Shown: piece by piece, positions 29,816-34,272 of the stretch
How positions within the stretch are numbered: the stretch's first letter is position 1
How the letters are laid out: each line of letters starts with the position of its first letter
From: Bacteroidota bacterium
GTDB lineage: Bacteria; Bacteroidota; Bacteroidia; UKL13-3
Assembly (NCBI GenBank): GCA_947453415.1
Contig: CANGGG010000008.1
Location: 1-60,998 of the forward strand
Direction of reading: 5' to 3'
DNA length: 60,998 bases
Made by a program: the position numbers and the translations under genes
Notes under the pieces: generated by a model
The model's database searches: none
Seen by the model: only the letters and a program-made list of their open reading frames with translations
Told to the model about the DNA's origin: nothing

Positions 29816-29823
29816 TATATTTG
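29816..29823 (+). promoter_or_regulatory. Promoter -7 element of trhO
   Basis: TATATTTG, an exact TAnnTTTG, followed by CAGCCC and the ATG at 29830. The 6-base gap implies a leaderless or nearly leaderless transcript. The TTG that extends the frame to 29821 is part of this element. Confidence 0.65.
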
Positions 29824-29829
29824 CAGCCC

Positions 29830-30762
29830 ATGACGAGTGAACCATTCAATTATTTAGTTTTAGCATATTATAATTATACCCGAATAGACGATGCAGGAAC
29901 TTTTGCTCCATTGCATTTGGCTTATTGTAAAAATTTGAAACTTCGAGGTAGAATTTATGTAGCCCAAGAAGGAATCAACGGAACCATAAGCGGCACCAAA
30001 GAAGCTTGCGAACAGTACATGCGCGATTTAGTGGCTGACCCTCGTTTTGCTACAACTGAATTTAAAATTGACGAAGTTGCTGAACATGCTTTTCAACGCA
30101 TGCATTGTAGGTATAAAACCGAAATTGTTTACAGTGGTTTGCGCGATCCAAATGTTATTGACCCAACCAAAGAAACTGGAAAACACTTAAAAGGGGAGGA
30201 GTTTTTGGCTTTAAAAGACCAAGATGATGTAGTTATTTTAGATGTAAGAAGTAACTATGAAACTCGCTTAGGGAAATTTAAAAATGCTATCACATTAGAC
30301 ATGGAAAATTTCCGTGAATTCCCAGGTAAAATAGCTGAATTAGAAAAGTACAAAGGCAAAAAAATAATTACTTGTTGCACTGGTGGAATTAAATGTGAAA
30401 AGGCCTCAGCACTTTTATTAAAAGAAGGTTTTACCGATGTTTATCAATTACATAACGGCATCATTGGCTATGCAAAAGAAACTGGCGGCAAAGACTTTGA
30501 TGGCATGTTGTATGTTTTTGATGGAAGGGTAAATGTGGCGGTGAATGAAATAAATCCTTCAGTAATTTCTCCATGTAAAAAATGTGGTGGCCCAGCACCT
30601 CGCAATTTGAATTGTGCCAATGTTGAATGCAACGATCAGTTCAACATGTGCGATGCCTGTGCTACGGAAATGGAAGGCGCTTGTTGCGATGCTTGTAAAG
30701 TTCATCCGCGTAAACGTGAATTCAATGGAACCGGTTATTACACTCGCTTTGCCATTGATTAA
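29830..30762 (+). CDS. trhO: tRNA uridine(34) hydroxylase, rhodanese family
   Basis: Oxygen-dependent 5-hydroxylation of the wobble uridine in some tRNAs (YceA/UPF0176 family). The N-terminal acylphosphatase-like domain has YVAQEGINGTISGT, the rhodanese domain holds the active-site cysteine in ITCCTGGIKCEKASALL, and the C-terminus is a Cys-rich zinc-like module (CKKCGGPAP ... CDACATEMEGACCDAC). The ATG at 29830 gives 310 residues (MTSEPFNYLVLAYYNYT). Its stop codon overlaps the last bases of the convergent crtY-blh gene by 4 bp. Confidence 0.95.
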   Translation: MTSEPFNYLVLAYYNYTRIDDAGTFAPLHLAYCKNLKLRGRIYVAQEGINGTISGTKEACEQYMRDLVADPRFATTEFKIDEVAEHAFQRMHCRYKTEIVYSGLRDPNVIDPTKETGKHLKGEEFLALKDQDDVVILDVRSNYETRLGKFKNAITLDMENFREFPGKIAELEKYKGKKIITCCTGGIKCEKASALLLKEGFTDVYQLHNGIIGYAKETGGKDFDGMLYVFDGRVNVAVNEINPSVISPCKKCGGPAPRNLNCANVECNDQFNMCDACATEMEGACCDACKVHPRKREFNGTGYYTRFAID

Positions 30763-32798
30763 AAAATATTTTTTTGTGATTTAAAAGTGTTTTTATAAAA
30801 TACATTCATAGTTAAAATGTGAGGAAAACTTATGCATGATGTAAATATAAAAAAAACAGTAATTATCTGGCTTTGAAATTCAGTTAATAATCTTTTTTCA
30901 ATAAAAATATAAAGTATAAAAAACAATAAAAATGCTCCTAGCGTAAAGGGAAGTGCTTTCATATAAATGGAAGTATTATTAACATTTAAAACTTTTTTTA
31001 AATGACCCCAACCATGTATACTATGTTGCCCAATAAAGTATAAACCAAATGCAGTAATTAAAGGAAGTTTGATGCTTATTGCTAAAAAAACACAGCTTAA
31101 AATCATTGCTAATTTCCTTTCCCAAAACCCCCAAATGAAAACTAATAAAGTCAGAGAAATGCTGATAGTTTTACCGGTTTTTTCATTTATTTGAAATAGT
31201 TCTACGCCCATATTTTTTAAAATAATATTGGTTTCTACTGAATGTCCATATAAAATAATGCCCAATAATATTCCTCCCCAAATCCAGTTTTTAAATCCAT
31301 TATTGTTTTGAATTTTCCATTCATTGATATCTGCTTGTCCGAAATGCCAAATAGAATAAATTAGAAAAAATAATAAAGCAATATTTGGAAAAAGGAGCCA
31401 TAAAATAAAGTACATGAAAGCAGCACCCAAATACTTAATTACAAAATTTAGCTTTATTTTACTGTGTAAATTTCCACTTTCTAATAAATGATCTACAGCA
31501 CCATGGGGTATGCCAACTGTGATTAATCCTAAAATTAAAAGTAATGATTCAACCCATTTAAATTGGTTTGGAAACACTGAATTTGAAATTAATAATCCTA
31601 AGGCTAAAGCAATTAATATAATGGGAATTATCAATGGTTTTAGTTTGACTGAAATATCAAACTTCCATGCTTTTAGAAATGGTTTGAAGGGCAATGAACT
31701 TAATATTTTTATATCTTGAAATATGGAGGTTTTTTCATCCATAAAATTTAAAACATTTTTTGCATCATTTTTTTTAAATAAAGTTTCAAAAATATTTTTT
31801 CCTGATGGTGGGTCATTACGGAGAATTAATAATAATAATCTATCGTAAAACTTAAACCTACTAGCGTAATTAGTTACTTTAAGTTGATGCAAATTTTGCA
31901 AATTATTTGCTATATTTTCTGCATGTTTAAACATGTTTTTAAAAGCATAACCAGTACTAGGTTTTATTGCACCTGACCTTCCTCCAATTGAAATTACATT
32001 TGGAATATTATCATTTAAAATAGCAGCATTACTCATGGGAATATTACCAATTTCAATAGCTGCTATTTTATATGTTCCAAATCGCTTAGTTATGTATTTA
32101 TCAAGGATTGGTTCAGCTTCTTTTTGCATCAATTGTGAAACACCAAATCGCGTTAATTCTACTAAAAGTTTATTTTCACTAAATGGAAGTATATAAACAA
32201 ACTGTGTATATTCATTTTGTTCAACATCAAAGTCCATTAAATCTACGCAATTATAATCCGGTAGTTTATTTTCTACTTCAATTACAAAACCCAAAAAAGA
32301 TTGAAGTAGATGAGATTCATTTTTTTTAAGGGTTAAATAGTTAGGAGGACGACTATCGAAAACTGTTTTTGAAAGAAAAGTTTCATCATTAGTAATTACC
32401 GCCACTCCATGTTCCGTTTTTTTAAATTCTAAAACGGGCTGATGAATGCGAAGAATATTATATTTTTCAATGATTCTTTTTAACTCTTTATACAAATCAA
32501 AACTTGAAATATAGAAATATTTCATTGGGTGAAGCAATTGAGGTTTATTTGAATTTACGCTAACTTTTTCCCATTGATGGCTAATTAAATGTTTACATCG
32601 TTTTACAATTAAATCCTCTGAATTTTCCCAAAAGCAATAGGTCTTATCGTTTTTCAATTTGTTATCAGGATCAATAATAACAATGTTTTTTCCGTGTAAC
32701 ATTCCACGTTCATCCAAACTCATTAATAATAATATTGCCGATGCTCCAGCACCAGCAAATAAATAATCAATATAAGAAGTTTGAATTTGATTTTCCAT
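30759..32798 (-). CDS. Fused lycopene beta-cyclase (CrtY) and beta-carotene 15,15'-dioxygenase (Blh)
   Basis: One 679-residue protein carrying two consecutive retinal-pathway enzymes. Residues 1 to about 375 are CrtY: the dinucleotide-binding start DYLFAGAGASAILLLMS, then IIDPDNKLKNDKTYCFWE, TQFVYILPFSENKLLVELTRFG, and IGGRSGAIKPSTGYAFKNMF. Residues about 390-679 are Blh/Brp: a multi-pass membrane protein with PHGAVDH (H432, H437), WHFGQAD (H485), QHSIHGWGHL (H592, H595, H599) and SFPHILTM (H660), the histidines expected to bind iron. A cleavage of lycopene to beta-carotene and then two retinals is the predicted chemistry. It is directly behind the rhodopsin gene, separated by a terminator hairpin. 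I checked for a stop or frameshift at the junction and found none. Confidence 0.93.
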   Translation of the reverse strand: MENQIQTSYIDYLFAGAGASAILLLMSLDERGMLHGKNIVIIDPDNKLKNDKTYCFWENSEDLIVKRCKHLISHQWEKVSVNSNKPQLLHPMKYFYISSFDLYKELKRIIEKYNILRIHQPVLEFKKTEHGVAVITNDETFLSKTVFDSRPPNYLTLKKNESHLLQSFLGFVIEVENKLPDYNCVDLMDFDVEQNEYTQFVYILPFSENKLLVELTRFGVSQLMQKEAEPILDKYITKRFGTYKIAAIEIGNIPMSNAAILNDNIPNVISIGGRSGAIKPSTGYAFKNMFKHAENIANNLQNLHQLKVTNYASRFKFYDRLLLLILRNDPPSGKNIFETLFKKNDAKNVLNFMDEKTSIFQDIKILSSLPFKPFLKAWKFDISVKLKPLIIPIILIALALGLLISNSVFPNQFKWVESLLLILGLITVGIPHGAVDHLLESGNLHSKIKLNFVIKYLGAAFMYFILWLLFPNIALLFFLIYSIWHFGQADINEWKIQNNNGFKNWIWGGILLGIILYGHSVETNIILKNMGVELFQINEKTGKTISISLTLLVFIWGFWERKLAMILSCVFLAISIKLPLITAFGLYFIGQHSIHGWGHLKKVLNVNNTSIYMKALPFTLGAFLLFFILYIFIEKRLLTEFQSQIITVFFIFTSCISFPHILTMNVFYKNTFKSQKNIF

Positions 32799-32811: not shown

Positions 32812-32852
32812 AAAAAAAGGGGGTTCCTTTTTGATTAAAGAAACCCCCTTTT
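32812..32852 (-). terminator. Terminator/attenuator between rhodopsin and crtY-blh
   Basis: A 16-bp stem (AAAAGGGGGTTTCTTT with AAAGGAACCCCCTTTT) followed by seven T's, ending 13 bases before the crtY-blh ATG. One pair is C-A on the plus strand but G-U in the minus-strand RNA, so it is built for minus-strand transcription. It should end most rhodopsin transcripts and let a fraction read into crtY-blh. Confidence 0.85.
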
Positions 32853-32871
32853 AATTATTTATTGTATATGA

Positions 32872-33588
32872 TTAGTCTTCGTTTCTACTTAATGTATAAA
32901 TTACTAAACCGAAACCAATTTTATTGATTGCGTCAGCAATGTTATAAACAATATCCATAGCATGTGAAGCTGCTGCAGGATCTGCTACTAATTGAATTCC
33001 AAATAATCCACCTGGAGTTCCTAAAATGTAACCCAAAGGATAAATTGCCCAACCAACTAATACAAACCAAGCTAAAACTCTAGTTGCTTTTGCTACTTGT
33101 TTTCCAGCTGTTTGTGCTAAATTAGCAACTTCACCAAACCATACTAAGTATGCAATGTAGAAATAAGCTGCTCCTGAAATTACTCCCCACATTACACTGC
33201 TTCCTCTGTCAATTGTTTCACCGAAATATCCGGTTACAAGCATTACTAAAGAAGCTAAAATTAATTTCCAAAGTAATGAAATTTTTGCACCTGCTTTTTT
33301 AGTGATTAAGTAGAACTCAACGCACATTAAAGGTACTGTAAGAATCCAATCAACATATCTAAAGAATGTTGGTGAATCACCTGTTGCTAAATTGTAACCT
33401 CTCATGTAGTAGTAATGAACTGCTGCAATAAAAGTTATTAATCCAGAAACTAAAACTGATGTTCTCCATTTTGCATTAGTGTTACCTAATTCGAAAAAGA
33501 AGAATACTGATGCGGCCATCATGGCCATTGTTCCGATAAAAAACGTAAATGCTACGTAGTTATCACTTGCAATTTTTAAATGCTCCAT
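32872..33588 (-). CDS. Proteorhodopsin-type light-driven proton pump
   Basis: Seven-helix retinal protein. The motif triad is DTE: Asp80 (proton acceptor), Thr84 and Glu91 (proton donor) in RYVDWILTVPLMCVEF, equivalent to D97, T101 and E108 of green proteorhodopsin, so it should pump protons outward. Lys223 in ADAINKIGFG binds retinal, and His58 matches the acceptor partner H75. The tuning site (GPR 105) is Met88, a green-absorbing type. Gly135 in MWGVISGAA aligns with GPR Phe152 and Gloeobacter rhodopsin Gly178, the opening that can hold a carotenoid antenna. The 238-residue length and MEHLKIASDNY start are typical, with no signal peptide. It is upstream of crtY-blh on the same strand. Confidence 0.96.
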   Translation of the reverse strand: MEHLKIASDNYVAFTFFIGTMAMMAASVFFFFELGNTNAKWRTSVLVSGLITFIAAVHYYYMRGYNLATGDSPTFFRYVDWILTVPLMCVEFYLITKKAGAKISLLWKLILASLVMLVTGYFGETIDRGSSVMWGVISGAAYFYIAYLVWFGEVANLAQTAGKQVAKATRVLAWFVLVGWAIYPLGYILGTPGGLFGIQLVADPAAASHAMDIVYNIADAINKIGFGLVIYTLSRNED

Positions 33589-33690: not shown

Positions 33691-34272
33691 TTATTTTTTT
33701 GAAATAGCATTTCTAATTTTACTCAAAAATTCAGGAGTAATTCCCAAATAGGAAGCTATAAGTACATTTGGTATCCGATTACAAATATTAGGATATTGTT
33801 CTAAAAAAAATTGATACCTTTCCTCCGCCTTTGAACTAATATTTTGTAAAATTCTGTTTTCAAGTTCCATAAATTTATTTTCAATCAAAACACGAAAAGT
33901 TCTATCAAATTTTTGATAATGAGTAAAAAGATACATCAAATTTGAATTATCAATTTGTATAATTGTGGATGGCTCTATTGCATCTATATAAAGTAAGCTT
34001 TGTTTTTTATTATGAAAGCTATTGATGTCACAAATCCAATCATTTTCTGACGCAAAATGTAAAATATGTTCAGCTCCATTTTTGTCAACTGTATACATTT
34101 TAAACAAGCCTGAAACGATAAAAGTATAATTATTGCAAATGTCATTTTTTTGCAAAATAAATTCTTTTCTTTTAACATTTCTTTCTATAACTCTATTTGA
34201 TAATTCAGTAATTTCTTCATCATTTAAAGGGATGTAATTGCTAAAATGAGTCAATAGTTTATTTATATTCAT
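33691..34272 (-). CDS. Crp/Fnr-type transcriptional regulator
   Basis: An N-terminal cyclic-nucleotide-binding-like beta roll (about residues 30-120; NNYTFIVSGLFKMYTVDKNG, HFASENDWICDI) and a short C-terminal helix-turn-helix (VLIASYLGITPEFLSKIRN). This is the compact 190-residue form common in Bacteroidota. The cAMP-binding arginine motif of E. coli Crp is not evident, so the ligand is unknown. It is 102 bases upstream of the rhodopsin gene in the same direction and could regulate it or be cotranscribed. The sequence does not settle this. Confidence 0.85.
   Translation of the reverse strand: MNINKLLTHFSNYIPLNDEEITELSNRVIERNVKRKEFILQKNDICNNYTFIVSGLFKMYTVDKNGAEHILHFASENDWICDINSFHNKKQSLLYIDAIEPSTIIQIDNSNLMYLFTHYQKFDRTFRVLIENKFMELENRILQNISSKAEERYQFFLEQYPNICNRIPNVLIASYLGITPEFLSKIRNAISKK

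Follow-up and report, generated by a model that had tools for sequence, protein, structure and literature searches.

A single-frame CrtY-Blh fusion beside proteorhodopsin in Bacteroidota as a candidate lycopene-to-retinal enzyme

Organization of the locus

The window, i.e. the whole stretch of 60,998 nucleotides analysed, belongs to a freshwater bacterium and contains a gene joining a lycopene cyclase (CrtY) half and a Blh half in one frame, preceded by a proteorhodopsin gene. The relevant features are as follows:

30759–32798, minus strand: whole fused CrtY-Blh gene, 679 amino acids from its ATG (uninterrupted open reading frame)
31671–32768, minus strand: FAD lycopene cyclase domain, CrtY-type, residues 11–376 (PF05834, E 2e-42)
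31530–31670, minus strand: junction, residues 377–423, with the first hydrophobic helix of the Blh half (AlphaFold helix, spacing in homologues)
30798–31529, minus strand: Blh domain, residues 424–667 (PF15461 BCD, E 4e-34; TIGR03753; residue conservation)
32815–32852, minus strand: strong terminator-like hairpin with a T-run, between the opsin stop and the fusion start (16 pairs, z = -5.7)
32872–33588, minus strand: proteorhodopsin (PF01036), directly upstream of the fusion (Pfam and alignment)
33691–34272, minus strand: Crp/Fnr-like regulator (PF00027), preceding the opsin in the same orientation (Pfam)

The uninterrupted CrtY-Blh frame read from the letters in the preliminary description is confirmed by profile matches in both halves, and the whole-genome search found it as a single copy in its own genome. 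The cyclase half matches PF05834 (Lycopene_cycl) with 146 bits at a cut-off of 23.4, covering profile positions 1–377 of 380, with identical limits in the whole-genome profile search, and the Blh half exceeds both the curated cut-off of PF15461 (118.9 versus 28 bits) and that of the NCBIfam Brp/Blh model TIGR03753 (137.9 versus 95.25 bits). The Pfam search, in which the cyclase is identified as PF05834, found neither a CrtI nor a CrtB domain in the fused chain. By its scores, the CrtY half is a member of the lycopene cyclase family that cannot be assigned as a CrtY equivalog, since it stays below the NCBIfam cut-offs for both the CrtY equivalog (TIGR01789, 45 versus 215 bits) and the wider cyclase subfamily (95 versus 209.5 bits); its product is therefore deduced from family and context. 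At its 3' end, the fusion gene (30759) is convergent with a rhodanese-like gene (29821–30762), and the two stop codons share about 4 bases.

The opsin and its terminator-like hairpin

The opsin in the window aligns with green proteorhodopsin at the D, T and E pump residues and the retinal lysine, its best solved relatives being 9jou and 9jov. In most related loci an opsin lies within a few kb of the fusion; among the 80 fused loci found in GTDB genome contigs, it is directly upstream in 40 and downstream on the same strand in 12. It should be pointed out that the opsin is conserved far above the fused enzyme—mostly 86–100% identity with dN/dS of 0.01–0.03, versus 34–88% identity for the enzyme.

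Concerning the hairpin, it ends in the window about 17 nt ahead of the start codon of the fusion, so that a transcript coming from upstream must pass through it. A hairpin follows the opsin stop in 51 of 60 related loci—34 of the 40 with the opsin upstream, 8 of 10 with it downstream and 9 of 10 with it on the opposite strand—and the stem sequences differ from locus to locus. None was seen behind the stops of the fusion (0/76), and random stretches gave 7 in 1000. The opsin terminator probably acts as a step-down, which would keep the fused enzyme scarcer than the opsin.

Conserved residues, selection and predicted structure

All seven histidines listed for the Blh half in the preliminary description stand at the residues it gave, and most of them are conserved: among 61 fused homologues, H432, H485, H592 and H660 are histidine in every sequence, H599 in 58 and H437 in 51. 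The exception is H595, the position of which holds histidine in 3 of the 61 and mostly asparagine, while H519, invariant in all 61, had been overlooked. In the CrtY half of the same homologues, C55-F56-W57 and D148 are invariant, as are the dinucleotide-binding glycines and acidic residue (G16, G18, A19, E214 and G283).

Comparison of the window with its two nearest relatives gave dN/dS values of about 0.16 for the CrtY half and 0.21–0.25 for the Blh half, the junction being the only region with a raised value (0.46–0.55); purifying selection thus acts on both halves. Decay of one half was considered as well and is ruled out by these values together with the key residues invariant in the 61 homologues. 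The junction keeps its length, the spacing from F374 to G429 being 50–55 residues in all 61.

The AlphaFold model of the fused protein (mean pLDDT 90.9, pTM 0.82) predicts one helix, residues 371–408, running through the junction. A fold search matched the CrtY half to geranylgeranyl reductase and related flavoproteins, all of the matches listed being flavoproteins aligned to this half; the sequence search returned no solved structure for either half.

Distribution and origin of the fusion

A search for the same domain order, as proposed in the preliminary description, showed the fusion to be widespread in related aquatic bacteria beyond this genome, with about 100 loci at 34–88% identity, including some 30 near-full-length matches from a search of 147 relatives; in almost all related fused loci the frame is unbroken at about 650–720 amino acids. 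Neither the stop codon nor the frameshift against which that description had cautioned is found at the junction in any of these approximately 100 loci, and its claim of a real fusion beside an opsin has held. The probability that assembly or sequencing merely joined two neighbouring genes is practically nil: nothing speaks for such an artefact, and it is refuted by the recurrence of the same open frame in separately assembled genomes, at about 100 loci. A frameshift is likewise dismissed because of these shared loci, the selection on both halves, the invariant residues and the high-confidence model. No viral carriage of the fusion was detected in the scan of IMG/VR.

Among 395 genomes of the class sampled, 71 contain a clear Blh: in 33 it forms a single frame with a cyclase, in 9 a cyclase gene is its neighbour—two of these resembling interrupted or contig-end fusions—and in 29 it is without one. 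The 33 fused genomes fall in 11 families. In a quick tree, the fused cyclase domains all fall on the same side of a branch with support 93. The Blh domains of the fusions group in one clade with support 99, which also includes one contig-end copy and a lone Blh (locus L132). Both domain trees fit a single origin of the fusion, after which the cyclase half was lost at least once.

The lone Blh, located in genome G280, has no adjoining cyclase and a glycosidase-like neighbour; the cyclase half has probably been lost there. As this member of the fused clade occurs on its own, the fusion is not an absolute requirement. It should be noted that two records bearing the names Streptomyces griseus and Candidatus Parcubacteria (L038 and L090) have this Bacteroidota-type gene, their assemblies being likely mislabelled or mis-binned. 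One fusion-bearing genome (G124) also carries a divergent second Blh-like gene with a frame of 259 amino acids (G124:C2:27958-28587).

A second lycopene cyclase

A second lycopene cyclase is encoded elsewhere in 31 of the 33 fused genomes and in all seven genomes with a clear adjacent two-gene CrtY-Blh pair, versus none of the 26 genomes with unlinked blh left after contig-end cases were dropped. The PF05834 part of the search scored no more than four candidates per genome, so that a divergent cyclase may have gone unseen. The Fisher value for this association, 2e-16, treats the genomes as independent and is not to be read literally because those sampled are related; the families f2, f33, f53 and f68 contain both kinds of genome. 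The two fused genomes in which no second cyclase was found are G342 (77% complete) and G402 (92%).

Concerning the genome of the window, CrtI and CrtB are encoded on contig 81, with a DNA photolyase gene shortly behind crtI-crtB (L160:5719-7047), and contig 23 carries CrtYcd, CruF and CrtD together with a member of the fatty-acid-hydroxylase family that is about as large as CrtZ. In Algoriphagus, a CrtYcd/CruF/CrtD/CrtZ set has been associated with flexixanthin, a monocyclic carotenoid (PMC10784355).

With such a gene set present, the two cyclases could also work in series, the CrtY half adding the second ring to γ-carotene supplied by CrtYcd instead of using lycopene. The Algoriphagus CrtYcd has been reported as a monocyclase (PMC2889829), and the genome of the window encodes an enzyme of this kind. 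The second cyclase is, however, a stand-alone CrtY in five of the fused genomes, the other 26 having a CrtYcd. Members of the CrtY family are, moreover, usually able to close both rings, and we consider the serial arrangement unlikely.

Proposed function of the fused enzyme

Cells that produce retinal as well as xanthophylls have to share out lycopene and β-carotene between these two products. We propose, with a probability of about 0.72, that the fused protein is a bifunctional membrane enzyme converting lycopene to retinal for the adjoining proteorhodopsin, its cyclase half being an extra, retinal-dedicated one beside the CrtYcd xanthophyll branch; we infer both enzyme activities, what each branch yields and any physical handover. 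The FAD-dependent CrtY half would cyclize lycopene to β-carotene, the non-haem-iron Blh half would cleave the latter at the 15,15' position, and the resulting retinal would pass to the neighbouring opsin. Lycopene would be the branch point, leading through CrtY-Blh to retinal and through CrtYcd, CruF, CrtD and the hydroxylase to monocyclic xanthophylls; the linkage may commit lycopene to retinal, with less β-carotene lost to the hydroxylase. The nearly constant co-occurrence of the fusion with a separate cyclase suggests a private retinal supply line for the proton pump, and a retinal-dedicated role is supported by the genome comparison.

Such dedication of the cyclase requires no covalent link, however, since the two-gene pairs display the same pattern. 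The fusion may merely provide the two enzymes in equal amounts and at the same place, β-carotene diffusing freely with neither channelling nor a separate pool, and to this we assign a chance only a little short of even. The second cyclase in all seven genomes with adjacent unfused genes agrees with it, as does the Blh of the fused clade that has no CrtY, whereas the constrained junction length, the continuous modelled helix and the retention of the fusion down to about 34% identity across 11 families argue against it. Direct transfer of β-carotene between the CrtY and Blh sites is plausible. The broadest version of the retinal-dedicated reading—a channelling lycopene-to-retinal synthase of single origin that has spread through aquatic Bacteroidota, holds retinal and xanthophyll synthesis apart in cells with two lycopene cyclases and is adjusted in level by an attenuating opsin terminator—is offered tentatively, as we are more doubtful than confident of the whole.

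Because CrtY-Blh linkage and a second cyclase go together almost without exception, the division of lycopene and β-carotene can be tested directly. The linkage may also serve as an annotation marker for retinal-dedicated cyclases, and the fusion is a natural one-gene candidate for lycopene-to-retinal conversion in metabolic engineering.

Comparison with known systems

Fusions of carotenoid enzymes are already known as CrtIBY, CrtIBY-Blh and CrtIB. The open-access literature searched yielded no description of CrtY fused to Blh in bacteria; since the fusion is so common, databases may already carry the architecture. Where proteorhodopsin clusters contain crtY and blh as two genes, these represent the same enzyme families, catalysing consecutive reactions next to an opsin, whereas here they make up one polypeptide that is additional to another cyclase. 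The CrtIBY-Blh of Thecamonas trahens (PMC10016063) likewise unites a cyclase with a C-terminal Blh in one chain; it is, however, a four-domain protein of a eukaryote, a protist, in which CrtI and CrtB are present as well and the cyclase is of the unrelated CrtYc/d type. In the CrtIB of Verrucomicrobiota (PMC10284914), enzymes of the retinal pathway are likewise naturally fused within a bacterial rhodopsin cluster, but they are other enzymes acting at earlier steps. Finally, the Algoriphagus pathway (PMC10784355) has the gene set of the second branch in the present genome, although no retinal is made by it.
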